A stretch of DNA of 64,000 nt from Cucumis sativus (taxonomy: Eukaryota; Streptophyta; Magnoliopsida; Cucurbitales; Cucurbitaceae): assembly GCF_000004075.3 (NCBI RefSeq), contig NC_026658.2, positions 2,480,001-2,544,000 on the forward strand, given 5' to 3'. Positions within the stretch are counted from its first letter, which is position 1. Every line of letters begins with the position of its first letter. A model generated the notes under the pieces. It saw nothing but the letters and a program-made list of their open reading frames with translations. It had not been told where the DNA came from and searched no databases. This document shows positions 28,287 to 59,448 of the stretch, piece by piece. Made by a program: the position numbers and the translations under genes.

Positions 28287-30620
28287 TCATTTCATATCTG
28301 CCATGAACTTTTCGTACTCAGCATCTGCACCTGATGACGTCTTCTCAGCAGAAGGCATGGGAGGAGGCATTGGAGGATTTGTAGCCCAAGGAGCAGCCCC
28401 GCTGGGCGGTTGAGGCTGATCCGTAGTTGGCGCAGACATGGGCAACGGATGAGTAGAGACCGCACTATAATAAGCCGAATAACCATATGAAGGCGGGTAA
28501 GAAGGTTGAGCACTAGGTGGCATCGAATATAAAGTGTTCCCATATGCCGTAGTTTGTAATGGCTGGCTAGTAGGATTTTCAGATGGCAATCCCGGAGGAA
28601 AACTCTGTTGTGCTTCACCTGAAGTCACAGGTTGAGATGGAGCACCAGGGGGAGCTGTCTGGACCTGAGAATACTGGACGCCGTAAGGAGGCATAGCCTG
28701 ACCCTGAACAGCCGGATAGACGTTAGAACCTGGAGGTGGAGGGGGGTAAGAAGCATACGGAGAAGGAACTGGAGGACCCCATGGAACTGGGGTAGCAGAA
28801 TAACTTGTGGGTGGAGGAACATTCCCAAGAGGACCACCGGGCATAAACTGCTGGGACGGATAGACACCAACAGGCTGGCTTGAAACGGGGTAAGTGGGCA
28901 CAGTCGATGCTGGAGGGCAAGGAGGCACAGTAGGCTGTGGTGGCTTCCCAGCAACTCTAACAGCAATCGTTCGGCCTTCTAGACGATAACCATTCATGCT
29001 GGCAATTGCATTATTAGCCATCTGAATATCAGAATACTTCACAAATCCATAACCTTTGCTCAATCCGGAAACCCTATCCTTAATGACCTTAGCCATCACA
29101 ATATCGCCAAATGTTGAAAATAATCTAATCAAACCATCATCATCAAAAGTAGGAGGCAAATAACCTATATACAAGTTTGTATCGTCATATTCCTTAGCAG
29201 GCTTCACTCCATTCGCACCAACGCTTGCTTGTGGTGTATTGCTAGCGCTAGTTGTATTGTTAGCCCAAGGAGGGTTGGTTCCTGAAGTGCCAGAACCTAT
29301 TGCTAATGTAGGGGTCTGCTTGGTTGCTGATTCGGGAATTGTACCTCCTAACTCTGCCAAGAAATTCTGATATTCATCATCCATCTTTTTCCCAGTTGTC
29401 CCCTTCACTGGACAATCAATTGTTGGATGCCCACCATCACCACATATTTTACAGAGTACATCACTCTTGAATGTGGATGTCCGCGAAGGGCAAGCATATT
29501 GACGATGCCCAGCCTCGCCACACAACCTACAGAATTCTTCATCCCTTATGGTTCCATTCAAGGCAGCAAGTTCCCTAAGTTGCTGCCTCTTATGCTCATT
29601 CAAAACTTCGTCAACAGGCTGCAAAAGCTTCTCTACCATTTCCGCCGCAGCTTCTAGTGATTCCTGCGTTTCAGCCTCAACTAGAACATGCAAATCCTCG
29701 TTCTCTGCAGGATCATGCTTTAAATCCCTCTTCTGTTGCAATCTACCTTCTTTTACAGACCCTTTTCCCCTAATTACAATTTTTGCGCCAGTTTGTTTCT
29801 CCATCCTCTTCTGTGTATTACCTCTAGGACCAATAATCAGCCCAATAAAATTGTAACCTGGGTATTCCTTCATCGGTATATAAAGCTTCTTCTGAAGCTT
29901 CGGAGGCCTATAATCTGCTGGAGGCTTAAAAGCAGGGTTCTTCTTGATTATTTGAGAAATAATCTCTTGTCTCTCTGTGTTCAATTTTTCACGAGCACGA
30001 TACTCCCTAGTATTAATTCTTATTCCCATATTGTCATAAATTGGCTCCGGCGAAGGAGAACGAGCACCTTCAGGCCGATCATCCAACGGCATACCAGATT
30101 GAAGCATTCTACTAATTTCTAAAAGCCTACTATTCAAAGCTTGAATTTCAGGGTCGAACTCAATACCTCCCATAAAATCTGGAAGTTGAATTACAGGTTT
30201 GGGATCATCATCAGCCCAACGAGACTTCCTCTTGCGCGCACCACTCCCAGATTCACCACCACTCTGTTCATTACTCTCAGGCTGCGGGTCCCATCGGCTC
30301 CGACGTCGTCGCCTACTCGTAGTCTCCTCTTCACCACCGGAGAAATCCTTGTCGGTACCACTATGAGTGTTTGTAAATCCATTCTCCGACACCAGCGGCT
30401 TCTGAATAATCTCCACCTTCGGCACATAATTAACACCATCAGCCGGTTGGTTTTCCGCATGCCCATTTCCAGAACTAAACCCCGAGTTTTCACCCTTAAT
30501 TTCTTTTAATAAGGAGTTGGGGTCGCGATCGTGGTCTTCGGGAGTAGAATAATCGGGAGGATAAGGAACAAGGGTTTCAATGGCGGAATTAGGGTTAGGG
30601 TTTGAGTTGATAGAGTCCAT
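28287..30620 (-). CDS. SF1: Splicing factor 1 / branch-point-binding protein
   Basis: SF1 recognises the intron branch point together with U2AF65 in early spliceosome assembly in the nucleus. One uninterrupted exon encodes 777 residues. In order there are: two tryptophan motifs of U2AF-ligand type ([11 protein letters not shown] near 103-113, [11 protein letters not shown] near 129-139); a KH-QUA2 domain (about 245-335, with [20 protein letters not shown]); two CCHC zinc knuckles ([14 protein letters not shown] at 364-377, [14 protein letters not shown] at 390-403); an RRM (about 482-556, NLYIGYLPP and KGYGFVKYS); and a long proline/tyrosine/glutamine-rich tail. The RRM after the zinc knuckles is typical of plant SF1 and absent from animal and yeast proteins. 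I chose the ATG at 30620 because the protein then opens MDSINSN; an in-frame ATG at 30704 would add 28 residues of unlike composition. Confidence 0.95.
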
Positions 30621-32853
30621 GTGGCGTTTCTTTTTCTTCGAAGGGGATGAGGAGATCGATAAGAACAAGAAAGAAATCGTTCCGCTATTTGCAAGAACCC
30701 TCACTGCAATGCTTAAGCGTGCGTTTCGATTCGACGCGGAGTTGGGGTCCGGTATTTATACGGCTTCAAAAGCCCCTGCATATAATAAATACATAATTAA
30801 TAGGAAAATTGCCCAATATTATTGTTTTATAATTACCCAAATATGAGGTAACTTTTATTTTTTTCATCTTAAATTTGTTATTATTCTTGGATAATTTATT
30901 TATCTTAAGTTATAATTATTTATTTATTTTTATATTAAAAAAATTATTTATTCTTATATAAAAAATTTATTTATTTTCGTACTAGAAAATTATTTATCGA
31001 AGTAATTTAACTTCATTTAATTTGTGATTTTTTTTATTACTTTCTTCCGTGTGTATTTTGAGTTGAATCTAATTTCAAATTATCTTTATTTTATTTTTTA
31101 CATTAATTTTTTTATTTTATTTTGTCTCGTATATCAGTGTTGTGATATACTTATATTATATGTATTAGTTGGTTAATATATTACTATGTGATTTTTATTT
31201 TTCAAATTTTATGCAATTAATTAGAGTATTATTAAGTATATAAATGATGTAATTACTCAATGTATCATTATCAAGTATATCAACAATATATTATTAAAAC
31301 ATATCAGTAGAGTGAATCATTATCAAGTATATGATTCAAGTTTACAATAGTGTATCAAGTGTATAAGTAGGACTTCAAACATATCAAGTGCATTTAATCA
31401 ATCAATTGTATAAGTGAATAATACTAATATATATGCAATGTATTAGGTGTATCAAACATATATTAATAATGTTTTATATGTATATCAAAAGGTATCAAGT
31501 GTATCAATAAGTATCGGGTGTATTAGGTGTATCAGACGTGTATAAAGTGTATCAAACGTATATTAGTAACGAAAACATTTGTGACATTTTACCTCTTGAT
31601 ATGTGGACTGGATATCGTTTTTGTCATTTTCACAAATAATAAAGTGTGTGCGCTATAGACTTAATTATTATAAATTATTTTGCCATTTTTGCAAGTGACT
31701 CTAATTAATATTAAATTTGTGTGTTATTTTATTCCTAATTTTTATTTTCTGCAAAAAATTTATGATTCAAAATTAAAATTATGGTTTCTAAATCTTTGTT
31801 ACCTTCGGTTTAATACTGTTTTTCTTTTTAAGTAAGAAATAGTGTCTTTTAAGTATAAAATAAATAAATATTAGGAAAATTGATCTTTAATTAAAACTCA
31901 TTTTTGCCTTAACCTAACAATGAACCAAATAACTCATCTTTTGTTACTTTCCTTATCAAATTCAAACACACTTTAACATTCAAACGTATATTTGTTTTAA
32001 AAAAATAATACAACCTTTATTGAAATCAAAGGTAATTTCTTCTTACTCCCTTTTCCTTTTTCCTCTATGGTTCTCCGAAGACTCTAGATTTAAATTTCAC
32101 CTTATATATTTATACATGAGATGATATAATACTCTTCAGACTTGCAAATAAACTTGAAAATAATTAGATCACACTGCAGCCACTTGGCTTAAAGGGTCAG
32201 TAAACAAGAAAACTTCAACAAGGCATCAAAAGGAGAGAAATGAATTTAATTTTTAGTGAACAGGAATGTATAGAGGCTAGATGAAGTCGTAGTCGTAGTA
32301 TTGACATAATGAATGAAGAAAATTAGGGATCGGTTTCTTAGACTAAAGTTTTCCAAATCTTCATGGAAATTTCTGAATGTTCCTTCTTTACAGCCACCTA
32401 TAGAAGGTAAAGGAAAAGCAATCAAACTCAACCCAAGTTCACTCTGTAGAAAGCCATTTCTTCTTTTAACATGTTCGATTCCATGTATAGAGTACATTAA
32501 GTATAAATAAATGGCTATAACAGAACTTTTGTTATTCGTAATAACTAGTAAGGAATGTTTTTATATGGTACTACTGCAAATATTTTCGTTTATGCTCCTA
32601 CCTATTATCTGAATATACCAAGAAAGATGTATGGTCTAATGAGGCTGCTATGAACTATTGGATGTAAAAACAAGGTAGCATGTTAGAAAGCATAAAAATC
32701 CAACGAACCAACTGATAAATATGGATCGATTTGGTATTCTAAAATTTAAACTTATACTTGGGTTGGTAAGAGAACATTGAGTTTTGTACTGAATTAGATA
32801 TTTTTTCAAATTTCAAATTCACGCACTTACCTTTATTAGCGACTGCTGCTCTC
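30621..32853. other. SF1 upstream region and AT-rich intergenic DNA
   Basis: The left end holds the SF1 promoter and leader. The rest is AT-rich and includes a degenerate tandem repeat (separate entry). The right end, next to the ATG3-like stop at 32854, may be its 3' UTR: a splice-donor-like AAAG|GTAAGT lies just past the stop. No other gene is recognised. Confidence 0.45.
31230..31560 (+). repeat. Degenerate TATCAAGTGTATCA tandem repeat
   Basis: Words such as TATCAAGTGTATCAA, TATTAGGTGTATCA, TATCAAGTATATCA and GTATCGGGTGTATTAG recur at irregular spacing of about 10-30 bp. The copies have drifted strongly. It is seen directly; no coding capacity is visible. Confidence 0.6.
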
Positions 32854-35800
32854 CTAATCAAAGCCAATGTTGCAATCATATTTAATAGTTGGAAATACCG
32901 AAGCAACGAATTCCAAAAATAAAGAAAGGCACCTGCAAAACATATCCTTTCAATTATAACACCCTCTTCTTCACTTTTCTTGTAAGTATCGGTTTGTAAA
33001 ATAAATAAGGTTTGCTTAAGTTGACGACTAGTAAATTTAAACCAAGAAATCAGATATGGTTGAGTAGGGGAAAATGCCAATATATGGTTGTTTAAAGGGA
33101 AAGAGAACGTGAAATTACTTGCTGACTTCAGGTACATTGCCTTGCGACATTCGACATTTGACCATTTTCTTTACTGCAGCTCCATGAATTTTTGGATGTA
33201 CAGATGCATGTTTCCCAGGCAAGTAAGGATGGTCTTCAATATTGACCTGCATATTGAGATTAGATTACAATTTACAATAGTATTCTTTTGTGGAAATACT
33301 AGATATCTAGATTTGCTTTATTGTTTTCTCTTTTTGGGCAATGCCGGGATTGGAAGAGATTTTTCTCCGTTCTAGGAAAAAGGATACCCTAGCTTGATGC
33401 TAAAAAGGAAAGTTATGACAAGGTTTGGATGGAAAAAGGAAAACACTAGGACATGTGGAATTTTAGCTAGGTGGTTGGGCTTTGTTTGGTAAGATCAATC
33501 TTGTCTGATTTATTTGCTCAATTTCTCCCTCTTATGTTAATTGAGGTCCAGTATTGAAAGACTTTCTATGTTATCTTTTCAGGTTATGATTAAATGTTAA
33601 AAAGAAAACGTTCAGGAGCGATTGAGAACTGTCGCCAGCTCTATCTTACTGTTTTGCCGACATGACTCTGCCTGACATCTTCAAAAATTAGTTCTGGTTG
33701 CAAGGGCCTCCCGTCCTGCAAGAATACGTTAACAAAAAGAAAAAGACTGAAAAGATGATGAAGATATGGTATTGTGTACCTAAGGGTAATAATTGTATGG
33801 TATAACATGTAGAAATGTAGCTTGCAATTAACTTACAGATTTAAGAACACGAACAAACATTTCATCAGTTATGCCGAAGTATTTATAATTAGATGGCCAA
33901 ATAATTGAATGCTCTAAAGGTAATCAATCACCTAAAAAATAAATTTCTTTCCAGAACCTTTTCTTCTGTATTTATCATGAAGAAGGATTGTGTCAGGGAC
34001 CTAGTTAGAGTTGTATGGGATTATTAGTATAGTTGGTTGTAGGATTAGTCTAAGGAGCATTGTAGTAATTGGATAGTTTGTTGGGCAGGGCTTTTTAGTT
34101 ATATATAGTAGGAAAAGTGTTGGGGAGAGGAGTGAAAAATTTTGTAGAGAGATTTTCTTGCAAGGGAATTGGGGAGAGTATAGCCATCTCCAAAGGTTAG
34201 GGTTACTTTGTTACCTGGTATTTTAGAATATATTTCATATATTATCATATTTGATAGTTGTTTAACTGTTCTTGAGTTTAACCTTTGTTCTTGAGATAAT
34301 TCTTGTTGGGTGGGATCCTATCAAATTACTGAAAGTATGGCAAAAAAAAATGTGTAAAAGGAATATTGATAGTAAAGGATACTTGTAGTTATATCTAACA
34401 TGGGCTGAATAAATGGCTATCCTCGTTGCACTCTTTCTTTGGGGGTAGATTCTACTAATGGTGAGAGAGTATTGTGAATCCCCGTATCATTTTATATCAA
34501 TGTTAAATAATTTACTCCCCAACTTCAACAAACGTACACTATAAAATTTGCACATTTAACAAGCAATTTCATATTTTACTCTATGTCGGTTCTCTCCAAA
34601 CTAACCAACTTTGGACATGAGACATCAACTTCTTAATTCTGACATATTAATTCAAAACTTCAAAAACTCCGAAGTAATCATAATAAATTCAAATACAAGC
34701 CACCAAACTATCACAACCATTGAATTTCATTAGAACACGGCCAAACGCTGAGACAGATTTAAGTGCAAACCTCGTGATATCCAGTGAGCCAAAAACGGAA
34801 GGTCTGATGATCATTGTCATATCTGGAACGACAGAAGATGGTCAGATAAACATACACCATATAAGCACTTTTTCGTATGAGCCCTCTTACTAATACTATG
34901 CCTATAACAATTGAAGTATAATGTCAAGTAATGTACACAGTTAATTATCAAACGAAGGACCCAAGACATTAAAAATTATCTCACGTGATGCTTATGTCGT
35001 AAGTTCTTAGGCATATGATATCTTCAGAATCATGGACTACACGATGAGTTGATTCCTGCGTTGCCTGCGAATAAATATTTAGATGACAATCTGAGATACC
35101 TAATAAACATACTTGCATATCAATTACTGCATTGCAATTACTAACTTACAGAACATAATTTAATAGATTTTTCCATGTATGGTAATGGTAAATCTTCTTT
35201 TTTATCAACAGCAAAGTACGATGGAATTATCGTAATAGGTTTCATCGTGCCTGGTTTAGGCAATTCTTTTGTTGAAAGCAAGTTATCCTCATCCTTAGAC
35301 TCTGTTTATGGGAGTACAAGATTAAAACAAAATTTAAAAACGTATTTAGGATGGAACAATTAAAAAAAATCAGCATAGATGTGAAATATGTTAAATTTAT
35401 TTAGCAGACCACTTAGGAGCCGAGCATTATCTTCACCATCGCTGCCAACAATCACATATTCTTCTTTATAAGAGAAAGCCCTTCGCAGACAAGGAGCTGA
35501 AAAAGAAGCACAGGATTAGTGGTCACTCTCTATCTAATATTCTCTTTCTTCAGAAAATAACATCTTCAAAATTTACTGTTCTTCTATTTGACAATCTATA
35601 ACTCCAGTCACGTTAAGAAAATAAAAGGTTATTGCTAATTCTAATGAAACAGAACAATAATCTAGCAACCAATAATTAGCTCTTGGCTAGTGAGAATGCA
35701 ACTTACTCAAGTATTTTAATTTTAATAACAACAACGTGGGTGTTCTAAAATCGACAAACAAAATAAACAGAAAACAGTAAGACTGATTTACGTGGTTTTT

Positions 35801-36499
35801 AACCGTGTAATAGCTAAGTTATAAGTAGAAGAAAACTAATTTTATTAGAGATTATTCAACAAAAGAAAGACTCCTCTAGGTGCCATACTATACTTCCTCA
35901 CTTGATGGTAAAGAACGGAAATACTTAGATCCAAGACATTCCAATAATGAGTTTTTGTCAATCCTTGAAGTTTATGAGTACTTAAAGAATTAAAGATTAC
36001 ACAAGATAACTTCATTTTAAAACCAGTTATCGCTGTTCTCAACAGAAATGGCTAAGCATAAGTAAAACCCCAATACAAAACTTCCAATCTTTAAATACGT
36101 CAAGTGCGATTCAAATCCATTAAACTAGAAAATCACCCAGTTTGAACAAAATGGATAACACAGCAAAAAAGATAATCCAAACTGACCATTTCTTAAAATC
36201 AAAAACTGTTTGTCAGATGGTAAATTCGATTTCTGTTTGCTCAAATCCCCAGATTCCCTAAAAACCAAAATGAAAGACAATATTAAAAAATTTCCAAGAA
36301 AGAAAAAACTACAACAAAATTAACAAAATTAGTGTGGAAAACATAAAAGAAACTTAAGAATAAATGAATAATACCAAGACCAAGAATCGGAATTTCCGAC
36401 AAGAAAATTGCCGGCGGTAATGAAATCGGCCTCGGTGAAGACGATGGTTTTTTCTCTGTTTTGAGAGGGCAGGCGAAAAATTCCGAACCAATGAACCAT
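32854..36499 (-). CDS. ATG3: ATG3-like protein lacking the catalytic cysteine
   Basis: ATG3 is the E2-like enzyme that passes ATG8 from ATG7 to phosphatidylethanolamine during autophagy. Nine exons join in frame with standard GT-AG introns to 278 residues: 36375-36499, 36187-36257, 35413-35496, 35150-35301, 34985-35064, 34771-34822, 33650-33715, 33119-33246 and 32854-32932. Clear ATG3 signatures are SWSWESGDLSKQKSNLPSDK, QFLILRN, APCLRRA, LRTYDISITYDN, FWLTGYHEDGRPLQPELIFE and NIEDHPYLPGKHASVHP. Three oddities stand out. The family's HPC active-site motif reads HPK (Lys229, codon 33190-33192), so the thioester cysteine is missing. The usual N-terminal amphipathic helix is replaced by a shorter MVHWFGIFRLPSQ opening. 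The C-terminus stops a few residues early. It cannot conjugate ATG8 by the known mechanism; the open frame across nine exons argues against a long-dead gene. The gene sits where ATG3 lies in the related Arabidopsis block. Confidence 0.88.
33995..34325. mobile_element. Probable solo LTR fossil, Copia-like
   Basis: A block of about 330 bp opens near TGTCAGGGACC and ends near GGGATCCTATCA. It has an LTR-like build: a TATATATAG box in the middle, a GGGGAGAGG stretch after it and a TTGTTACC-rich later part. No internal region and no primer-binding site follow, which fits a solo LTR. Clean target duplications were not found, suggesting considerable age. It lies in the ATG3-like intron between exons ending 34771 and starting 33715. 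Family assignment is by look only. Confidence 0.45.
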
Positions 36500-40331: not shown

Positions 40332-42730
40332 ATGGTAGGTAGTGGATTTGTGAAGAAGGGCAGAGAAGGTTATGACTATAAGGGCAGGGTGACTTTATTT
40401 GTGATACTCTCTTGCATGGTTGCTGCCATGGGAGGCCTTATTTTTGGTTATGACATTGGAATTTCAGGTTTCTCTCTATCAATGCTATCTTCTTAAGTGC
40501 ATCTCGAAACAACGTTTATATTTTCTACACTCCATTATACTATTTAATCATAATTTTCTACGTGGAAAGTTATTTCATCTTTGTTTATAATGTTTACTAT
40601 TTCTTATCCAATATCTCTTTTCTTTTAGCCCCAATATTTAGTATTTCTTACTCATACAAAAAATTGTTCGTGCATCGTACACATACTACTATAACTTATA
40701 AACTATATAACAACTTGCTATAATTATCAACATGTATCCCAATTGATTATTTCAAATATGAAATGAACTGTAATATATAAATTCTGTCTAGTAAGTTTTG
40801 AAGACAACAATACATATCTATAGGCTCTTTAGAAGGAAAACACTTCAAATTTGCTAATGGGTATGACATAAACTATGTAGTATTGACCTCATCATAGGTT
40901 CGATTCTCCTAGCGTTATGATATAAAAATCTTAGAAATTTTGATATCTTCACATTTTCACGAGTTGAACATCTAAATGTTTATATTATATCAAAAAAATA
41001 ATCGAATATATAAAATAAACAACAAAATTTCACTAACGTGAAAATAACGTAAAATAAAAAAGTAATTTAGGAGTTTCTTGTGAATGATGAACAATGACGA
41101 AAGTTTGTAACTTGAAGGTGGAGTGACATCGATGGAGCCATTTCTGAAGAAATTTTTCCCAGAAGTGAACAGAAAGATGAAAGAAGACAAACAAATAAGC
41201 AATTACTGCAAATTCGACAGCCAACTCTTGACTTCCTTCACTTCTTCCCTTTACATTGCCGGCCTTCTTTTCACCTTCTTCGCCTCCTCCGTCACCAGGA
41301 CCTTCGGAAGAAAGCCCTCCATTCACATCGGCGGCGCCGCTTTTCTCGCCGGTGCTGCCTTGGGCGGTGCGGCCGCCAATGTCTATATGCTTCTTCTCGG
41401 CCGTATTTTGCTCGGAATCGGCGTTGGCTTTACCAATCAGGTTTCTTTTCTCTTTTTGTACTCGAGCTTTCTTCTTCACTCTTTTCATACAAAAATGATG
41501 AAGTTTCTAAAAATATTTAGGAATATATCGAAATGTCATACTGATGAAATTTCCAAGTTTATATCCAAAACTAAGGGTCAAAATATTTTGAAACTTGAAG
41601 CTACTTTTGCAAGCATTTGGTATAACTTAGCCATATTTTTCTATCAGGCAATTCCTCTGTATCTTTCTGAAATGGCACCGCCAAAATACAGAGGAGCAAT
41701 CAACAATGGCTTCCAACTTTGCGTTGGAATTGGCGTTCTTTCAGCTAATCTCATCAATTACGGAACCGCAAAGCTCAACAATACCTCAGGCTGGCGAATT
41801 TCCTTAGCTTTAGCTGGGCTTCCCGCCTCTCTTTTGACCTTTGGTTCAATTTTCTTACCGGAGACACCCAATAGCTTGATTCAACGCTGCGATGATGAAC
41901 ATCTAACCGCCAAGAAAATGCTGCAGCAGATCCGTGGAACAGATGATGTTGATGCGGAATTCGAAGATCTTGTGAAAGCAAATGCAATATCAAAGACAAT
42001 GAAGAAACCGTTCGTGAAAATTACTCAACCAAAGTATAGGCCTCAACTTGTGATGGCGATAGCGATACAATTCTTTCAACAAGTAACTGGTATCAATGTC
42101 ATTTCATTCTATGCACCGATTCTCTTTAGAACTGTTGGTTTAGATGAAAGTGCTTCATTGTTGTCTGCTGTGGTAACTGGGGTTGTGGGTACAGTAGCGA
42201 CCTTCATTTCAATGCTTATAGTTGATAAATTCGGCCGAAGGGTTTTGTTTACTATTGGGGGTATTCAAATGTTTATCTCACAGATCGTAGTTGGAAGTGT
42301 AATGGCTGCTAAACTAGGGGATCATGGTGGGCTGAGTAAAGGGTATGCTTATTTGGTTCTTGTTTTGATATGTATATATGTTGCTGGTTTTGCTTGGTCT
42401 TGGGGTCCTCTAGGTTGGTTGGTTCCGAGTGAGATTTTTCAGTTGGAGATTAGATCTGCTGGACAGAGTATTACTGTGGCTGCCAATTTTCTGTTTACTT
42501 TTGCCATAGCTCAGAGTTTTCTATCTATGCTTTGTCACTTGAAAAGCGGGACTTTCTTTTTCTTTGGTGGGTGGGTATTGATTATGACTGTCTTTGTGTT
42601 GCTGTTCTTACCGGAGACTAAGAATATTCCTATTGAGCAGATGGATAGAATTTGGATGGAGCATTGGTTTTGGAAGAGAATTGTAGTGGAACCGAGTCGA
42701 GAGATGACCTTCCATGCCGAGGCACATTGA
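40332..42730 (+). CDS. Hexose/H+ symporter, STP family (copy A)
   Basis: Sugar transport proteins import monosaccharides with protons across the plasma membrane. Three exons (40332-40467, 41118-41440, 41648-42730) give 513 residues, normal for the family. Major-facilitator sugar-porter motifs are present: [74 protein letters not shown] and [19 protein letters not shown] and MLCHLKSG each carry a cysteine; these two cysteines form the lid disulfide described for Arabidopsis STP10. About 12 membrane segments are expected. The second intron (207 nt) is open and in frame (see findings). It is a tandem duplicate of the gene at 44088-47938, whose third intron is absent here. It resembles the STP/HEX6 group; which sugar it prefers cannot be read from the sequence. 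Confidence 0.95.
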
Positions 42731-44087: not shown

Positions 44088-47000
44088 ATGGCAGTGGGAA
44101 TTGGAATAGAAAGTGAAGGAGGGCAATACAATGGAAAGATGACTTCATTTGTGGTGTTTTCTTGTATGATGGCTGCCATGGGAGGTGTTCTCTTTGGCTA
44201 TGACATTGGAATTTCAGGTACTCTTCTCCATCTCCATCTCCATCTCATTTCATTTATTCTCATTTCCAATCTCCATAGTTTTCTTACTTAAATTACAAGT
44301 TTAATCTTGATAGACAGAATTCAAAAAGTGTTTCTAAAAACTACTTTAATGGATGTATTCTTTGATTTAGTTCATTTTAATTTTTATACTCCTAAAAAAT
44401 TAATTTTGATTTTTATATTGTCAAAATGTTCATGTTGGTTATTAAACTTTTGAACGTTTTGGTTCACTTTTGTTGTTGAATTTTGAAAAGCAACTTTTAT
44501 CTTTTAATTTTTGTTTTGAGAGATAATAAAGATAGAAAAAAGAATATTTCTTGTAAAAAGTTGAAATATCCTTTTCTTTTAATTTTGTAACTAACAATTA
44601 TGATGAATTTAATTTAAAAAATAAATCATTTTAGAAGAAAAATAGTAATACTTATTCAAATAAAAATGAGTTTCTTTTAAAATCTTTAATTCAAACGAAT
44701 CAATAATGATGGATACTCCTTAATTGTTATTTAATAAAAATGTGTTTTAACTAAAATATTTGTTTTTCTTAAATCAATTTTTTTTCTCTTAAATTTAAAA
44801 GCACAATTGATATTTTTTTTTGTCATCATGAAATTTAAAATTGAAAGACAATAATTATGTAAAGCAGTTGGGTTGATTATTTAGGTTATAATAATATGAA
44901 AAGGACTCCAATCACACCATGTGGATATATGTGAAACTATAGAAATGATATGAGGAAAAGTCTTGCGAATATGTGATCACACAAACTTAATCAATGATCC
45001 CATCAAAAAGACTACAAATATTAATTACATTAATTAAGGTTTATTTTTAAAAAATAAACCAAACATATTTACACAATATACCAAAATTACATCAATAAAA
45101 TCTAAAATTTTACTATATATTTTATAAATATTTTCAATTTAAAATAAATCTTCAATTAAATAATTACTTTTCAATCTTCGTTATTGAAATTTAACCCTTT
45201 GTTTCTATATCATGTATTATTTACCATTTTAATCTCCTGATTTTAATATTTTCAATAGCTTTTTTTGTTATTTAATTAGACTTTTGTACTTTTCCACTCC
45301 ATTTAAGATTTATTACAAATGAAAAAAATTAAAATCGAATAAAATTCAAGAACCAAAACAATATTTTTATACTGCTAGTTTGTTTCATACATAAACATTA
45401 ACATTTGAAGTGAAAATTAATAATAATTTCACACTCACAAAACTTAATTATTATTGATGATGATTATAATGAATTAATTATGTTATAGGTGGAGTGACTT
45501 CAATGGAATCATTTTTGAAGAAATTTTTTCCAGAAGTGGATAGAAAAATGAAGGAAGACAAAGATATAAGCAACTATTGCAAATTTGATAGCCAACTCTT
45601 AACATCCTTCACTTCTTCTTTATACCTAGCTGGCCTTATAGCTTCCTTTTTTGCTTCATCTATGACCAAATCTTTAGGACGTAAACCTTCCATTCTCTTC
45701 TCTGGCGTCGTTTTCATTGCCGGGGCCGCCCTCGGTGGCGCTGCCATGAATGTTTACATGCTCATACTTGGCCGCGTCTTGCTCGGAGTTGGCGTCGGCT
45801 TCGCAAATCAGGTACAATTCTCTTTTTTTATCTCTTTCCGAATCCCATTTATCTTTTTAATTTAGTTTTAATATATATACATACGTATTGTCTTACCTCG
45901 AACCACTAACACATTTTTGTTGATGTTTATCAATTAGTAGTTACAAACATCTATCACTCTTACAATTTTAAAAAACTAACACTTTAAATTTTCAACTAAT
46001 GTCCTTAAAATTCTATATTATATTATTTTATGTTGTGAAATTATATATATATATAATTGTTTAATTAAAATTTAGTTCCTAAGCATGAATCAGATCAACA
46101 CTCAATTATTTTATGGTTTGGAAAATCTGTCTTCTTGTGTTGTTGACATTTCTTGTGATTTGATATTGATACTGATTTATTTATTTATTTATATTTAAGA
46201 TCCAAATTGAGACTCATTTATAATTACTTTATTTTATTATTTTTATCATACACATCGGCAAGGATTTTCGTGTCTTGACCAACCATTTGCTTTCATATTA
46301 CTATTGTGAAAAAAAAGTCATTAATTCTAATAATTATATCAATTTAAAATTTAAACTATTACAGATGTATCAATTTAAGTTTTAAATTTGCATGATTGTA
46401 TCAGTTTAAATGTGTTAATTAAATTTTGTTGTAGTGGTCAATCTTGTTCAATTTGTTCAAACATATTTTTGGTTCTCATCTCAAAAAATTAATCGCGATA
46501 GTTAAGCATTTTCTAATGAAATAGTTAACGTGGAAAATCTTACGTGATGTTTCACAATGAGAACATATTTTCACTCTTATTATCAAATCTGTTCCAATCT
46601 ATACATTTGCAGGCAGTGCCATTGTACCTCTCTGAAATGGCACCATCAAACTACAGAGGAGCTATCAACAATGGCTTCCAATTCAGCGTCGGAATCGGAG
46701 CTCTAACCGCCAATTTAATCAACTTCGGCACCCAAAAGATTAAATCCGGCAATGGGTGGCGAATTTCCCTCGCCATGGCAGCTTTCCCCGCTTCAATCTT
46801 AACCCTCGGCGCCTTTTTCCTTCCTGAAACCCCCAACAGTCTCATTCAGCGTGGCAGTTCCCACCAACTGGTCGATGAAATGCTCCAACGAATCCGTGGC
46901 ACCCCTAATGTCCAATCCGAGCTCGCCGACCTAATCAAAGCCAGCGAGATTGCTAAATCCATCGACAGCCCATTCAAGAACATCATGAGAAGAAAATATA

Positions 47001-47938
47001 GACCCCAATTAGTGATGGCCATTGCCATACCCTTCTTCCAACAAGTAACTGGAATCAATGTAATCGCTTTCTATGCCCCTGTTTTGTTTAGAACAATCGG
47101 GTTGGGGGAAAGCGCTGCGTTGTTCTCCGCAATCATGACGGGAGCTGTTGGGCTTGTCACTACGTTCTTATCAATGCTGGTGGTGGACAAATTAGGGCGG
47201 AGGGTTTTGTTCATAGCTGGCGGTTTGCAAATGTTTGTGTCACAGGTAAATTAGTTTAAGCTATTGGATTAATGATGTAGATTATATCATGTTAAATTTA
47301 TCTTTACTCATGAGTTTAAATTAGCCGATAAAATAGGTGATTTAAGCATATTTAATACATGGTGGTTTGCAAATGCTTGTGTCATAAGAGGATATGATAT
47401 TAAATAAGATTTAAATACTATTTGAATGCCTATATATATGTTCACTTTAGTTCCTATAACAATATGCAAATGTTTGTCACAGGTCATTGTTGGTGTGCTA
47501 CTTGCAGCACTGTTGGGAGACCAAGGGACTGTGAGTAAAGGCTATAGTTATTTGCTTTTGGTGTTGATTTGTGTGTATGTGGCTGGATTTGGGTGGTCTT
47601 GGGGGCCATTGGGATGGCTTGTACCAAGTGAGATATTTCCATTGGAGATCAGGTCAGCAGGGCAGAGTATAACAGTGGCAACAAATTTTGTGTTCACATT
47701 CATTATTGCTCAGACATTTTTGGCAATGTTGTGCCATTTGAAAGCAGGTATTTTCTTCTTCTTTGGAGGGTGGGTAGTGGTAATGACTGTGTTTGTGTAT
47801 TATTTTCTGCCTGAGACGAAAAATTTGCCCATTGAGAAGGTGGAGAGAGTGTGGAGAGAGCATTGGTTTTGGAGGAGAGTTGTTGGGGAAGATGATAATG
47901 AGGAGAGGAAGGTGGGGGATTTTCAATCTTCACTTTGA
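44088..47938 (+). CDS. Hexose/H+ symporter, STP family (copy B)
   Basis: Four exons (44088-44217, 45489-45811, 46613-47245, 47483-47938) give 513 residues, the same length as copy A. All sugar-porter motifs are present: [74 protein letters not shown] and [11 protein letters not shown]. The lid cysteines (NYCKFD and MLCHLKAG) are kept. The first two introns are at the same places as in copy A. The third, 237 nt, lies after MFVSQ and carries extra copies of the neighbouring exon sequence. The N-terminus ([16 protein letters not shown]) differs from copy A, and the acidic tail ([19 protein letters not shown]) is also different, so the two proteins have diverged mainly at their ends. Both look functional. 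Confidence 0.95.
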
Positions 47939-50461: not shown

Positions 50462-52061
50462 ATGGTTGGTTCAATGCCTACTGTTAACTCTTCTCAGTGG
50501 CAAGAGAAGGCTAGTGGTTTTTTTTCTTCGTCAGGTATACTTTTCAGTATATAAATGAAGTTGTTTTTGTTGTTTGCTCTCTTACAGTTCTAATTGTTGT
50601 GTTTGCCATTGAATGATGATAAATTGCAGGTGTGAAGCTGAAAGAAGCTGGACATTCAGCTGGAAATTTTGTTGAGGAAGTTGCTAAGGATGCAAAAGGA
50701 AATGCTGCTGATGTGGCTGAACGGGTTGGTACTTTGTTCAAGAGCCGATGGGCACTCCTCCAACAGCCAGCTACCAGACATGCTGTGCAAGAACGTCTAA
50801 TATCTGCTGCTGCTACTACGGGCACATTCTTCAGAAAAGGTGTATCAGAGACAAAGGACAAGGTTGTTGTGGGGAAAGTTAAAGTTGAAGAGGTAATTTT
50901 GATCAACATTCCTATTTCCGTTTTGTTTTTTGTTCTTTTGTATATTACTTGGCAGATAATTACCTTTCATTTTCAACATTTTTAGGTTGCAAAAAAGACT
51001 GCACAAAAGAGCAAGACAATTTTGACAGATATTGAACGATGGCAGAAGGTAATAGTCCTTCTATACAGTTCTTATCTCTTTATATATTATACCCAACTTC
51101 TAACTCCTCTTTGTTTACAATTATGCAGGGGGTTGCCAGTACTGATGGTAAGTTCCTGAATTTTGTCCATTTAGTTTATATAGTGTCAATGAGTATTCTA
51201 CAGGCTTGAGCTCTCTGCCAAATCTTCTTGCTTGGTTCTACTCTGTATTCTTCTTCTTCTTGTTATTCTTCTTATAACTTTATTATGAACTGTAGTATTT
51301 GGAGTTTCAATTGAGGTAACCGTGCAAAAACAACAGTCAAGCAGGGTTATTCCACATATTTTGGTTAGGTGTGCCGATTATCTCGTCTTGTCAGGTACTG
51401 AATTTCACAATTACATTGCATCCCTATCTATACACATTTATACATGTAACTTTTTGCATGCAACTAAACTTATTTTTAACATCTGCCTTTGCTTACCCTT
51501 TATTTTCATATTTAGGATTAAACTCACCATGGTTGTTCAAATCTGACGGAGATAAAAAGGTTCTTCAGCAGTTGGTGTCTATGTATAATCAAGGTAAAGG
51601 AAGTAGTTTATATGATTAAGTTGTGTCTTTAATGATTTACTTTGAATAACTCCAAAGTGTGTGTTGGATATACATTTTTCAGATCCAAATGCTCCCTTAC
51701 CTGAGGGTACAAATCCAGTTGATGTAGCAGCTCTTGCTAAATGTTACTTGGCAAGTCTTCCTGAACCACTAGTCACTTTTGAGCTTTATAATGAGATCAG
51801 GGGTGCTCGTACAAGCATAAATGCCCTTCGAAACATTTTTAAGAAACTTCCAAACGTGAACTACATGACCTTGGAGTTTACTACTGCCCTACTTCTCCGC
51901 GTAAGCCAAAAAGCACTTCTCAATAAGGCAGGGACTCTCTCTCTCTTTCTCTCTCTCGTTGTGCAAGCATACCTGTTTGTGCAGTCTTGTTTACATAGGT
52001 CCATTTATGAGTTTTTAGTAGTGTATCTCTCTCTCTCACCCATACACATACATACACATAC

Positions 52062-52116
<55 letters not shown>

Positions 52117-54154
52117 TACATACACATACACATACACGCACATACACATGTTCATGCATTCCTGTGAACACTCTTGATTATATAGGAATGTTTTTTAGTT
52201 TATGTTGGCATGTAAGGACATATTATGTGCACTTCAATATGGATGGATACATATAGGTGCATTCGTGTTTATATAGGTCAATTTAAGTGTTACGGTGATC
52301 TCTGCTTTATTATGAACTTCAAACCTAGAAAAAGTTACTTGAAGATTTGTCAGATATGATATTTGTTTCAGCAGAGGATTTCTAGAATTGACTATGATCA
52401 TAAAAGGGATATTTACTATCCTACTCAACATCTAAGCACTACCTAGATTTTAGATAGAAAAGCTTCTGTGCAAGGCTGCAAATTTCATATATTTCACAAA
52501 AATGATGTGAGAGTACTTGTTAGTGGTTGGTATAGATTACTAGGATACTGGTAAGGGGTATCATGAGTAGTTAATAAGTGGTGTCTTGGTTATAAACTTA
52601 TAAATAAGTGGAGTTGAGAACCCTAAGGGAGGGGGATCATTTTGGTGAGAGTGGAACTTTGGTAGAGAGTAGACCTCTCAAAAGGCTTTTATATTGTCCT
52701 TTTTAGTGCTCACTTGTTATTGCAACATTGCAACTTTTTACAATGTAAAATGTGCCTCGACTTCACAATATACGACCTTCAGGAATATAAAATTTTTGGT
52801 GCTAGTCAAGATTTTGTGCTCCAGAACCTTCTTCCACAATTCTTCTTGTGACGAGGATGATATATTGTCATGCATACCCACTAATGTATGGCTTTGATGT
52901 TTGGGGAGTTTTGGGTATTATTTCTGTATTATTCTTCCACTTAGGTGATATGTATGCTTTTAGCTATTCCTAACTTCTTTCTGACTAATTGCTAATTTTC
53001 TGCCCTGGAAATTTAACACCTTTTTTATGTAACTTTTTAAGTCATCTTCCAATGTTCAACATGTTCTTATTTGTGTTGCTAATCTCTTTGTTCTTTCTAT
53101 AGATGGATGCTCGTAGCCTTTCTATGGAGATGACTCCTATAATAATGTGGCAAAATGACAGGCGGCCAGAATTCTATCGGGAATATTGGGATTATCATTC
53201 TAAAAGCTCTTCTGCAAAGTCTTTAAATAATACACCACCTACTTACAGTGCATGGGACATGCTTTCAGGTAACTAGGCCAATAGTCCTTTCTGTTTGATT
53301 GCTTGCTATGTACTTTAATTTAGTGCCACATAATTGGAAATGGATCTCGATTCCTCCCCTTATTGAATGGAAACTTCAATCGGAAGCTTTGGAACAAGAA
53401 CTACAGTGATCAATTAGATTTTTCATTTACTCTATGATAGACAATCTGCAGTGAATCAGAGAACCTACGACCTCTGTATGCCAGTAATTTTACCTAGTAA
53501 AATAAAATATTTATTTTGATTATTGCCTTATATTTCGACGGAAAAAATGTGAAGGATATATTCTATAGTGAAGGTTGGACAAATTTCCATCTTGACCCAG
53601 CATCTTAGGAGTTTCAAGTAGTTTACTGTACATGTGCTTGCTGCTAATTCTTTGGTTGGTGCACTGTTTTAGCACTTTGTGGTTAATTTGAAGCTCTTTT
53701 AGAGAATATGACTGTTTTTTTTAACCAGCACTTTTCATACATAAAGGTTTCTTTGAGCATTCATGCAACGAAACTTTAGGCTGCATCTGTTTATGACATG
53801 AGTAGGGACATTTTGATTCACTTAGCCGTTCTGTTTGTTATTCCTTACCATGTTGTAAAATTGAGAACTCCGCACGTAAATGTTAACAAGGAAAATAGTT
53901 TTAGTTAGTTGAAGTTGTTTGAGTATAGTTGGCATACAAATTTGTCTGCTGGAATTGAATGATGGTCCCCAAGGACAATTCTCATCATTTTTATTTTTTG
54001 GGCTGCAGAAGAGAGTGATGATACGGATGCTTCCTCTCACATTCCTTTAGATGATGGCGTTCCAGTTGACTTCAATGCTGTCGAGGTCGTTCAGTGCCTC
54101 ATAGAACATCATAATGAAATTTTTACTGATGCTAACGAAACAATTTGGAGATAA
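50462..54154 (+). CDS. RhoGAP-domain protein, At5g61530-like
   Basis: Nine coding exons (50462-50534, 50630-50892, 50986-51048, 51130-51148, 51296-51394, 51516-51593, 51683-51927, 53103-53268, 54009-54154) give 383 residues. It resembles the plant protein annotated as a Rho GTPase-activating protein at Arabidopsis At5g61530. The N-terminus (KLKEAGHSAGNFVEEVAKDA) is a probable amphipathic helix region; a RhoGAP-type domain follows (VFGVSIEV, LPEGTNPVDVAALAKCYLAS, LPEPLVTFELYNE, MTLEFTTALLLRVSQ). The tail contains DDGVPVDFNAVEVVQCLIEH. At the arginine-finger position, normally GIFRxSG, this protein reads WLFKSDG, so GAP activity is doubtful. One exon is only 19 nt. The intron after 51927 begins with GC instead of GT, and an alternative GT donor sits 27 nt upstream. 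Which ROP GTPase it might bind is not known. Confidence 0.9.
52043..52148 (+). repeat. (ACACAT)n/(ACAT)n microsatellite in a RhoGAP intron
   Basis: About 105 bp of CATACACATACACA-type repeat, seen directly, in the large intron 51928-53102. A CT run lies just before it (about 52026-52037), near a second CT run at 51937-51957. Confidence 0.95.
52500..52830. mobile_element. Possible LTR-type fossil in a RhoGAP intron
   Basis: This stretch reads like the later part of a plant LTR: a TATAAACTTATAAATAAG box, then GAGTGG and GAGAGTAGACCTCTC stretches and a TTGTTATTGCAACATTGCAAC-like tail. No coding part, primer site or matching second copy is seen. Ends and family are uncertain, and the call rests on look alone. 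Confidence 0.3.
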
Positions 54155-55712: not shown

Positions 55713-57009
55713 CTAGTTCAATGAAGGAGGAGATCGATCAAAGAAGTCAAATAAATCAGCTGTGAAATCATCAAAGCAATCATCTGGGGTTGTATAGTAA
55801 GGGTTTCCATTCTTAACTTCTAAACTACTTTCTGCTTTGATCTCTTGTTCTTTAGGCATTGAATTGCTCATGAAATGCAGGGAATTGTTTGTTTCCAAAG
55901 TCTCACCTGGTTCGAACACGTCTTGCACATTGCACGGAATGTGGTTTGGTGCTAGTCCATGGCAGTCGGGAAACATTCCGATCTCTTGCGAGGATTGAGC
56001 AAATTGGGAGAAACAGCAATGAGAAAAAGGGTCAAAGGGTGCTACCATGTGTATGGTTGAAGTTCCAAATATTTGATTTTCATTTTCCATTGTAAGCATA
56101 TTTGACTGTACTGATAGCGTCGCCATCTTGTGCATCTCTGAGTTTCCTAATTGGAAAGCATTCTTGAAATGATCTTTCCAGGTCGATGATTGTTCATCCG
56201 GCTGAGACGAGCTGGAGCTAGGAACCTGCAAATACATCAGCCATACTACCAAAAAATCACCAAAATGATAGTCTAATCTTCATTACAGACGAAGGTTGGA
56301 CATCTACAAGAAGTTGTAAGTTGGTAACTATTAACTTAAGAAACCAATTATCTTCCATTTAACTTAAATAGAAAACTATTTTACCTCTAAGACAGGCATT
56401 TCATGGAGTCTTTGAGACTCTAAACTCCTCTGTTTATTTTTCTGAGATTTCTGTGGTGGGGTTTGCAAAATCTTTTCCAATCTCTTCCTTCGTGTGCTCC
56501 AAAAATTCTTCACATCATTATCTGTCCTTCCCTCCAAATACGTTGCGATTTTCGCCCATTTGTTCCCAAATTGTGCCTGTAATTCAATCACCACCCTCTC
56601 TTCATCTGCTGTAAATTTGCATCCTCTGCACAAATATGCATATTCTTTACATCACTACTTATAAAGAGAACCAAAACCTTACAATTAGTACAAGAACAGG
56701 AAACTAAGGGAACAACTGAGAGCACGTTCGAACAATTTTCTCAAGTGTTCATAAACACTATATGTGCTCTTAGGAAGTCAATCCAAATACACTCTAAAAT
56801 TCAAATCTTATTACTTACGTCTTCAAGTTGGGTTGAAGTCGATTAACCCAACGTAGCCGGCAGGATTTTCCAGTCCGGGGAAGAAGACCTTTGGATCGAA
56901 GGGAGCTCCAGTCTCTTGGACCAAACTTATTGACATAGTTGATCAGAATCTCATCTTCTTCAGCCGTCCATGGCCCTTTCTTCATAACAATCCCTTTTTG
57001 TCTTTCCAT
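55713..57009 (-). CDS. DUO1: R2R3-MYB transcription factor DUO1
   Basis: DUO1 is a nuclear MYB factor needed in Arabidopsis for the generative cell to divide and form sperm. Three exons (56819-57009, 56385-56625, 55713-56225) give 314 residues. The R2 repeat (about 10-63) contains KKGPWTAEEDE, GPRDWSSLRSKGLLPRTGKS and CRLRWVNRL; R3 (about 65-115) contains TGCKFTADEERVVIELQAQF, GNKWAKIATYLEGRTDNDVK and NFWSTRRKRL. The extra lysine of TGCKF (Lys67), absent from ordinary R2R3 repeats (typically RGNF), is the known DUO1 hallmark. The tail ends in an acidic, aromatic stretch (DDCFDDFTADLFDFFDRSPP) that may be the activation domain. A near-perfect miR159 target site lies in R2. I chose ATG 57009; the frame runs a little further upstream but without an ATG. 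The gene lies in an otherwise conserved block, so it may have moved in here. Confidence 0.9.
56890..56910 (-). promoter_or_regulatory. miR159-like target site in DUO1 R2 coding sequence
   Basis: On the transcript strand this 21-nt stretch, which encodes W-S-S-L-R-S-K, agrees with the perfect complement of miR159 (from memory, UAGAGCUCCCUUCAAUCCAAA) at all but two bases, and both differences are A-to-G changes that would make G:U wobbles. DUO1 is a reported miR159 target in Arabidopsis, so the site supports the gene call. It is inferred to allow cleavage in cells outside the male germline. Confidence 0.75.
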
Positions 57010-59448
57010 TTCCAAACACAATTTTTCTCTTCTCTTCTCTGCAACTCTCTTCTTCTAAGTGTAGGACAGTGTCATATTGGAAACTTTCTTTTCTTTTTTC
57101 TTATTTTTGCCTCTGCTTCTCTGTGGTTTACTCCATGGAAGTCTTAGAAGGTTAGCCGTTAGATTCTTCATGAGATTTTGACGAGTGGATGAGATGTTAT
57201 TGTGTTTCGTTTCTGTGCGTTGGGGGGAACATTGGATTATGTCTCTTCCCCACTTTACATTAGTAGCGGTTTTGACGGTTAGTGGTAAAGATGCATTTCC
57301 CCGCCCGCTTGAGTTTTGGGTTTCAAATTCGAGTAATTACTCTTGTATCCTTCTCGTGGTTTATTTAATATTACATTCTAATCATGGATTTCTCAGTTTT
57401 ATGTTTGTATTTACATTTTCAAAAACTTAAAAACTCCATTTTTTTCCTTCCATATAATTATAAGTTCCTTTGAATGTTTAATGCTCGTTTAAGTTTAATT
57501 ATCAAATTATTTTCTAGCATTACCTCTAAATCTCAAATAGAAAAGGAATATGATTTTAGTTCTTTAAGTTTTGAAGAATACATCTATTTGGTTTTTAGTT
57601 TTCAAAACGGAATTTTTAAACATGGTAAAGATCTCTCAAATAATTTATTATTATATTTTAAATAATTTTCTCTCTCTAAAATTGTTTATTAAAATTTTGT
57701 TAAAATTTAAATACCTTATAATTATTTTTAAAAAGTTAAGAAAATAACCATTTAAATCTATTTCTAAAAATTTAGGGGCTTTGTCAACTTGAGTAATTTA
57801 GGAGAGACGGATTACTTCGATAAAAAAAACGAATCTATGGATGACCAATTAAAGAAAAACTTTACTGTATTCACATTTTTCATTAAAATATTCACATTAT
57901 CGTTATTCGTATTAATTCTTCCAATAACTTTTCTATAATTACTATCAACTAAACTCTTTTATGGTTAGCGAAGTGTTTCCTACTAAAAAGATATTTTTTA
58001 AAAATCCAAAGACTACTAAAAGTATATTTTAAAACTCATGAATTCAAAACACATATTCTTTTCCCTGCCATTTAAAAAACATTTTTTTTTTATAGAAAAA
58101 TGTGAGTGATAGAGCAAAAAAAATAGATCAACCCTTGGTGAACTAAGAGGATAATCTTCAATCTAGATTTCATTTGAGCAATCATGTTGTGGTTGTCACA
58201 TTACTAACAGATAAAATCACGATGGTTGAAGGTTCAATTTCTACTTTTATCGTGGTTGTATTAAAGAAATTATTACTAATTTTTCACTATGACTATTTAC
58301 ACGGGTTGAACATGTCAACTCGATTTATTTTATCCATCATTTTTCTAATATATAAAGACTACGACAAAAAAATTTCCCCTCACCATTGGAATGTAAATGA
58401 TTAATAACTAAAATTATGCTTTATTGTTATTGTTATTAGTTAATTATTTGGAGACTTGTTTGATAACATTTGAACAAATGTCTCTTGTCCAAACTATTTA
58501 ACTTATTAACTCGTTTTTTTTTTTTTTTTATAATTTGTGTTGTTTTCTAACACCTTGTTACTTTCATTTTCATGATATTTTTGAGCAAAATGGAGACTAG
58601 CTTGATACAAAGCACAATGCTCCTATGACTAACATCAAAGACATTAAGTCTACTTTTCTAATCAATTAGTTCAAATCCTAAGTGGCAAAGTAAAATGTAA
58701 ATTGACCTAATTTTTAAGTTTCTTTTAGGACAAGATGAGATGAAATATTGAGTTATTTAACATGTATATAAACGTCAAGTGATTCATGTTCTTGTTGACT
58801 TTTATTTTTTAATTTCAAACATTATTCAGCCCTTACTTGAGATAAGAAATACATATAAGAATATTAATTTACTAGCAACAGGATCGAATTCAAAAGTGAC
58901 TCGTATAGTGGGTTTATTGTTTATAAGAGTGCATTTTCACAATATACATTGTAATAGCTAGTAACAATGGAGGAAGTGATGAGTTCAATTTCTATAATTC
59001 ATTAAGATTTAGTGGTCACTTGACCTACTAGATGGAGTTAATAAGTCTGAAGTTAGCATATTTATATAACTTATGGGTGAATGTATATTTATGGGGCTCT
59101 TGAAAAATAACAAAAAAAAATTATGATAATAGTAAATTTAAAAGTCGATAACCTATAGTTAGGTTCTGATAATCCTTTGATAGTCTTCTAATTACTGATT
59201 TTGATACTCTTATGAAAATTGTGGATTAGTGTATCTCATATTTGTAATATCACATCACATATTCGCAATATGTAAAAGGTGTGTTATAAGTCTTTCTTTT
59301 TGTTTTTTTTTTTGTTTTTGTAGCAGAGATTGAAACTTGATTGAATACAAATGAAAGAGGACAAAAATTTTGAGTCCACAATTGTAGAGGAGTTTCAACC
59401 TTAATCAACGAGGCACTGAATTTTGTTCGAATCTCCATTCTCCACTAA
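57010..59448. other. DUO1 upstream and asparaginase upstream intergenic
   Basis: This holds two divergent promoters, for DUO1 and for the asparaginase gene. It is AT-rich, with T runs near 58507-58528 and 59300-59318. No other coding exon is recognised. Confidence 0.5.

Follow-up and report, generated by a model that had tools for sequence, protein, structure and literature searches.

Analysis of a 64,000-nucleotide stretch of Cucumis sativus contig NC_026658.2 (the window) revealed, at positions 36499 to 32854 of the minus strand, a homolog of ATG3 with nine exons comprising 279 codons and a stop codon. ATG3 is the committed E2 in the lipidation of ATG8. Also on the minus strand, at 28287 to 30755, a single 822-residue open frame encodes an SF1/BBP splicing factor with SF1-HH, KH, and RRM domains; no close second copy of this neighbor was found among the 55 of 104 candidates scored. 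Two neighboring sugar transporter-like genes lie on the plus strand at 41111 to 42730 and 45473 to 47938, with the Pfam Sugar_tr result covering the one frame at 46529 to 47254. A simple-sequence run at ∼52000 to 52160 encodes (TY)n in the frame 51646 to 52167, after a RhoGAP domain. Finally, a MYB-like gene is located at 55713 to 57054 on the minus strand, with exon-sized frames at 56818 to 57054 and 56379 to 56651 and a probable 3′ part at 55713 to 56279.

The exon borders of the ATG3 homolog, including those of exon 5 (34985 to 35064), were placed by hand with ATG3 as the guide. All eight introns of the resulting model begin with GT and end with AG (16 of 16 splice dinucleotides canonical), and the 280 codons and eight introns contain no internal stop, frame-changing length difference, or splice defect. 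The joined protein matched Pfam PF03987 (Autophagy_act_C) with an E value of 5.8e-36 and a score of 124.7 bits (cutoff, 24.4) and the ATG3 protein of PDB 3vx8 with an E value of 5.6e-73, and all six distinct PDB sequences that it matched at E values up to 0.001 are named ATG3. The match to ATG3 is far beyond chance. At E values up to 0.001, Pfam returned PF03987 alone and no second domain.

The Genome Also Encodes a Canonical ATG3

A PF03987 profile search of the genome (226,625,048 bases in 88 contigs) yielded five matches at the exon level, of which one belongs to the window gene and C6 and C7 account for two each. In keeping with the cucumber origin of the DNA, a cucumber plantacyanin matched at 94% over 65 residues and at 82% over its first 38. 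C6 carries a canonical ATG3 gene of nine exons (C6:6933614-6928317), which encodes a 315-aa protein with the motif HPCRHG; a genome without canonical ATG3 is ruled out by its presence. The window and canonical genes are equal in exon order and intron phases, with 8 of 8 introns corresponding, and every difference in exon length is a multiple of three. The retention of eight introns excludes a processed pseudogene. The C7 gene is ATG10-like, with the motif LHPCGTSEW, which we take to be of the ATG10 type. As this motif belongs to the C7 gene and the PDB matches of the window protein are all ATG3, the window gene is not ATG10.

The canonical C6 protein has Asp-Leu at the position of the Asp-Met ATG12-interacting motif of Arabidopsis ATG3. 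The accessible part of a cucumber proteome paper names ATG3 as Csa_6G104635, by a chromosome 6 identifier only (PMC8034359). Two other sources have no bearing on the window copy: one places an ATG3 within a QTL region of Cucurbita moschata (PMC7100279, accessible in part), and the accessible part of the other contains nothing on plants (PMC10289646).

The Window Copy Is Probably an Ancient Duplicate

The window and canonical ATG3 proteins share identical residues at 141 of 277 aligned positions (51%), and the synonymous sites between them are saturated, with dS values of 1.66 by counting and 2.42 by maximum likelihood. The canonical copy is identical to Arabidopsis ATG3 at 241 of 288 residues and the window copy at 140 of 266. 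We compared the 1,083 window frames that contain 30 or more residues with the 200 kb around canonical ATG3, accepting E values of 1e-4 or better. This gave 14 alignments, six to frames of the ATG3 gene and eight, which include sense or overlapping frames, to frames of the MYB gene (∼56379 to 57054), and no other window frames aligned. Relaxing the threshold to 0.01 added three weak matches of the window to the C6 stretch (E values of 0.003 to 0.010).

The MYB-like gene lies 20 kb from the window ATG3 copy, and its best genomic counterpart lies ∼17 kb from canonical ATG3. Specifically, one MYB exon frame had 93 matches in the genome, of which the best nonself match, beside canonical ATG3, had an E value of 8.6e-30 and the next an E value of 4.9e-13. 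Because the best genomic match of the MYB gene adjoins canonical ATG3, the two loci appear to form an ancient duplicated block, for which ATG3 and MYB are the two supporting gene pairs and in which the orientation of MYB relative to ATG3 is opposite at the two loci. The window ATG3 copy probably descends from an ancient duplication of ATG3, segmental or, more likely, of the whole genome.

The members of the MYB pair are located at 56379 to 57054 (minus strand) of the window and at C6:6950999-6951857. Both presumably resemble the pollen regulator DUO1 (GPRDWSS.RSKGLL.RTGKSCRLRWVN), and their similarity suggests that two DUO1-like genes were kept from the same duplication as the ATG3 pair.

In a three-way count, eight sites were common to the window copy and Arabidopsis and five to the window and canonical copies, numbers that place the duplication neither before nor after the Arabidopsis split. 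A cucurbit-wide tetraploidization is described shortly after the gamma event of 115 to 130 million years ago (PMC8969062, accessible in part), and either the gamma triplication or the cucurbit tetraploidization could be the source of the duplication.

Lysine Replaces the Catalytic Cysteine

Exon 8 of the window copy (33119 to 33246), which reads VNIEDHPYLPGKHASVHPKIHGAAVKKMVKCRMSQGNVPEVS(K), encodes HPKIHG where Arabidopsis ATG3 and the canonical copy have HPCRHG. The catalytic Cys within HPC that marks an ATG3 enzyme is absent, its position being taken by Lys230. The Lys230 codon, at 33192 to 33190, is AAA as compared to TGC in the canonical gene. All three bases differ, which is the minimum for any Cys-to-Lys change (any TGY to AAR). 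These data confirm the first-pass annotation of this DNA, which had reported HPK for HPC at the same coordinates within nine in-frame exons with normal splice sites, and they agree with its argument that the codon, being more than one base change from Cys, could not be explained by a single sequencing error. An assembly or sequencing artifact is in our view extremely improbable; we found nothing in its favor, while the three changes in one codon, the divergence of the gene over its whole length, and the finding that exon 8 DNA has one match in the genome, which is exact, all argue against it.

According to established chemistry, Lys230 would not form an ATG8 thioester, and because the active site has no Cys to carry that thioester, conjugation to phosphatidylethanolamine (PE) should be lost. 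The canonical copy has no equivalent of five cysteines of the window copy (residues 144, 163, 242, 255, and 274). None of them is at the active-site position, and the sequence gives no sign that another Cys would substitute for the one lost. The HP.H frame is retained, as is the Thr equivalent to yeast Thr213, which is found in the KT (residues 210 and 211) that ends exon 7 (33650 to 33715). In yeast ATG3, Thr213 is beside Cys234 in the active site, and the flexible region contains an E1/E2/E3-interacting switch (PMC6689050, accessible in part).

The nature of the substitution raises the idea of a natural isopeptide trap, in which ATG7 would charge Lys230 permanently with ATG8 or ATG12 and the product would sequester the modifier or block E1/E3 sites. 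By analogy, Cys-to-Lys E2 mutants loaded by E1 at high pH form stable isopeptide conjugates, but it is at high pH, 9.8 for UFC1, that such loading is described (PMC11727022 and PMC10937380, both accessible in part). The PDB chain 9e8p, which is named ATG3, has the same HPK, and retention of the Thr213 equivalent is also consistent with a trap; however, ATG7 is recruited in known ATG3 proteins by the flexible region, which is degraded in the window copy, and the W motif is gone. We consider a trap very unlikely. The engineered Cys-to-Lys E2s, UBE2D1, UFC1 C116K, and ATG3 chain 9e8p (which, from its sequence, we read as a laboratory mutant of ATG3), carry the same substitution as the window copy. 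They are, however, laboratory mutants of otherwise intact enzymes, whereas the window copy is natural and has a diverged background.

Docking Elements of ATG3 Are Lost from the Window Copy

ATG3 proteins contain an N-terminal amphipathic helix and a flexible region that binds ATG7 and ATG12, and an Asp-Met ATG12 motif is common to the human and plant proteins (PMC12005411, accessible in part). The LIR of human ATG3 is W-V-D-T (PMC10214526, accessible in part), with which we infer that the plant W-L-A-T (W-x-x-T) may be equated. Exon 3 of the window copy (35410 to 35496) is without the W-L-A-T motif of canonical ATG3; the segment contains no W, and the motif is deleted. Exon 4 (35150 to 35301) corresponds to the flexible region, which is strongly changed. 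The ATG12-binding Asp-Met is missing from this exon, falling in a gap relative to Arabidopsis ATG3, and with a pN of 0.49 and a pS of 0.48 the exon looks unconstrained.

Both ends of the protein are shortened. Exon 1 (36375 to 36499, with the start ATG at 36499) is 12 codons shorter than its canonical counterpart, such that the frame opens 12 codons later; the first residues of the canonical protein form the amphipathic helix. The N terminus that results is hydrophobic, and its helical moment over residues 1 to 11 is lower, 0.25 vs. 0.39. The in-frame sequence upstream of the window ATG has a likeness to a lost helix by eye only: when a decayed start codon and helix-coding bases were sought there, shuffled sequences did as well in 532 of 3,000 cases (201 bases) and 519 of 3,000 cases (60 bases), which is not significant. 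Exon 9 with its stop codon (32854 to 32932) is seven codons shorter than canonical exon 9.

Thus, compared with the ATG3 proteins of PDB 3vx8, 8fkm, and 2dyt, which we take to be those of Arabidopsis, human, and yeast, respectively, the window copy has the same Pfam domain, HP.H frame, and Thr213 equivalent, along with the intron phases of the canonical ATG3 of its own genome, but it differs from ATG3 in its Lys for the catalytic Cys, its later start, and its lack of W-L-A-T and Asp-Met.

The Window Copy Evolved Fast but Not Neutrally

The pairwise dN/dS of the window and canonical copies, which is an average over the two branches, was 0.229 (bootstrap, 0.128 to 0.347, with 972 of 1,000 replicates usable), and the pairwise omega obtained by maximum likelihood was 0.171, with an omega of 1 rejected (2ΔlnL, 71.7). 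By maximum likelihood, omega was 0.107 for the C-terminal half (123 codons) and 0.200 for the N-terminal half from residue 36 (132 codons). Of the checks proposed in the first-pass annotation, that for a second ATG3 found the canonical gene on C6, and that of dN/dS against active ATG3 gave 0.17 to 0.23, well below 1. With Arabidopsis ATG3 as the comparison, 94 changes were unique to the window copy and 8 to the canonical copy (χ2 = 72.5); a further 5 were unique to Arabidopsis, and all three proteins differed at 27 columns. Because most of the protein changes fall on the window branch, the omega of that branch alone would be above the pairwise value, at about 0.3 to 0.4 by arithmetic from the pairwise estimates.

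When the exons were considered individually, pN was 0.12 to 0.16 and pS was 0.66 to 1.08 in exons 2, 6, and 9. Exon 2 (36187 to 36257), which reads ESGDLSKQKSNLPSDKQFLILRN, is the best conserved, matching the canonical copy at 19 of 24 aligned residues; exon 6 (34771 to 34822) reads YDNDHQTFRFWLTGYHE. Among columns identical in the canonical and Arabidopsis proteins, the window copy differs at 41 of 125 in exons 2 and 6 to 9 and at 36 of 73 in exons 3 to 5 (P = 0.024), a grouping chosen post hoc after the exon-wise values and excluding exon 1 (17 of 28); with all nine exons, P = 0.053. Changes were not significantly rarer at the residues that human ATG3 also has (38 of 113 changed vs. 28 of 62 elsewhere, P = 0.14), and near-universal residues have been lost, with YDKYYQTPR becoming YDNDHQTFR.

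In neutral simulations, in which splice-site survival was added as a probability and indels were left out, the proportion of runs that kept both the frame and the splice sites was 26.8% at 0.02 substitutions per site, 13.1% at 0.03, and 2.1% at 0.05, and none of 1,000 runs did so at each of 0.2, 0.4, and 0.8. The frame alone was intact in 6.2% of runs at 0.08 substitutions per site. At the ∼5% level, the neutral span tolerated is ∼0.04 substitutions per site for the frame and splice sites together and 0.08 to 0.1 for the frame alone. Neutrality over the whole history of the window copy is rejected, and the simulation and the maximum likelihood omega together rule out a pseudogene that was neutral throughout.

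The short neutral period that the simulation does permit (13.1% at 0.03 and 2.1% at 0.05, or 6.2% at 0.08 for the frame alone) leads to a different explanation, namely, that a gene subject to selection for much of its history, perhaps by then as a pseudo-E2, has lost its function only recently and is now in decay, although its frame is not yet disrupted. The fast protein evolution (94 vs. 8 unique changes), the lost motifs and human-shared residues, and the N and C termini shorter than those of the canonical protein would all fit such a loss. However, stops, frame changes, and splice defects are absent from all 280 codons and eight introns, and the overall purifying signal is strong (2ΔlnL, 71.7). 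We regard recent loss as the main alternative, less probable than the retained pseudoenzyme considered below.

Discussion

The interpretation that we favor, and to which we would give about an even chance, is that an ancient duplicate of ATG3 has been kept as an E2-fold protein without an ATG8-conjugating function. Such a protein would form no ATG8 thioester and carry out no PE lipidation and would be expected to be soluble and noncatalytic. Its likeliest mechanism would be the binding of a partner via the conserved E2 core rather than via the docking motifs of the flexible region; the partner might be, for example, the N-terminal domain of ATG7, in weak competition with ATG3, or a protein outside the cascade. 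The first-pass annotation had proposed that a former E2 was retained here as a pseudoenzyme, perhaps one that binds ATG8, ATG7, or ATG12–ATG5 and acts as a brake or scaffold. The first part of this proposal is supported, though short of proof, by the loss of the Cys, the intact frame and splicing, a dN/dS well below 1, and the old age of the duplication, with canonical ATG3 still present in the genome. The second part is weakened by the loss of W-x-x-T and Asp-Met, the near-equal pN and pS of exon 4 (0.49 and 0.48), and the start 12 codons later. Since the known ATG8 and ATG12 docking motifs are gone, a role of the E2 core itself would be more likely than a brake or scaffold acting via ATG8 or ATG12–ATG5.

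The loss of elements that dock to the cascade, together with the five new cysteines (144, 163, 242, 255, and 274), would also be compatible with co-option of the E2 fold, in an expressed protein, for a role outside ATG8/ATG12 conjugation, possibly with the use of a new cysteine. We view such co-option as improbable, given that Pfam gave no second domain at E values up to 0.001 and that the new cysteines are all away from the active-site position.

A noncatalytic E2-like protein would have counterparts in the ubiquitin system, whose UEV proteins (such as Mms2/Uev1 and TSG101) are inactive E2 variants. Like these, the window copy is E2-like and without a catalytic Cys, and it is presumed to be noncatalytic; unlike these, it descends from ATG3 and not from a ubiquitin E2, and no ubiquitin E2 (UBC) domain was found in it in Pfam at E values up to 0.001. 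Among the matches listed, we found no inactive ATG3 relative in the open-license literature.

If the window copy is decaying, it would represent a case of slow duplicate loss and would caution against taking it for a second ATG3. If, instead, it has been long retained, it would indicate that a noncatalytic E2 can evolve in the conjugation cascade of autophagy, as in that of ubiquitin, and it would provide a natural test of which parts of ATG3 matter apart from catalysis.
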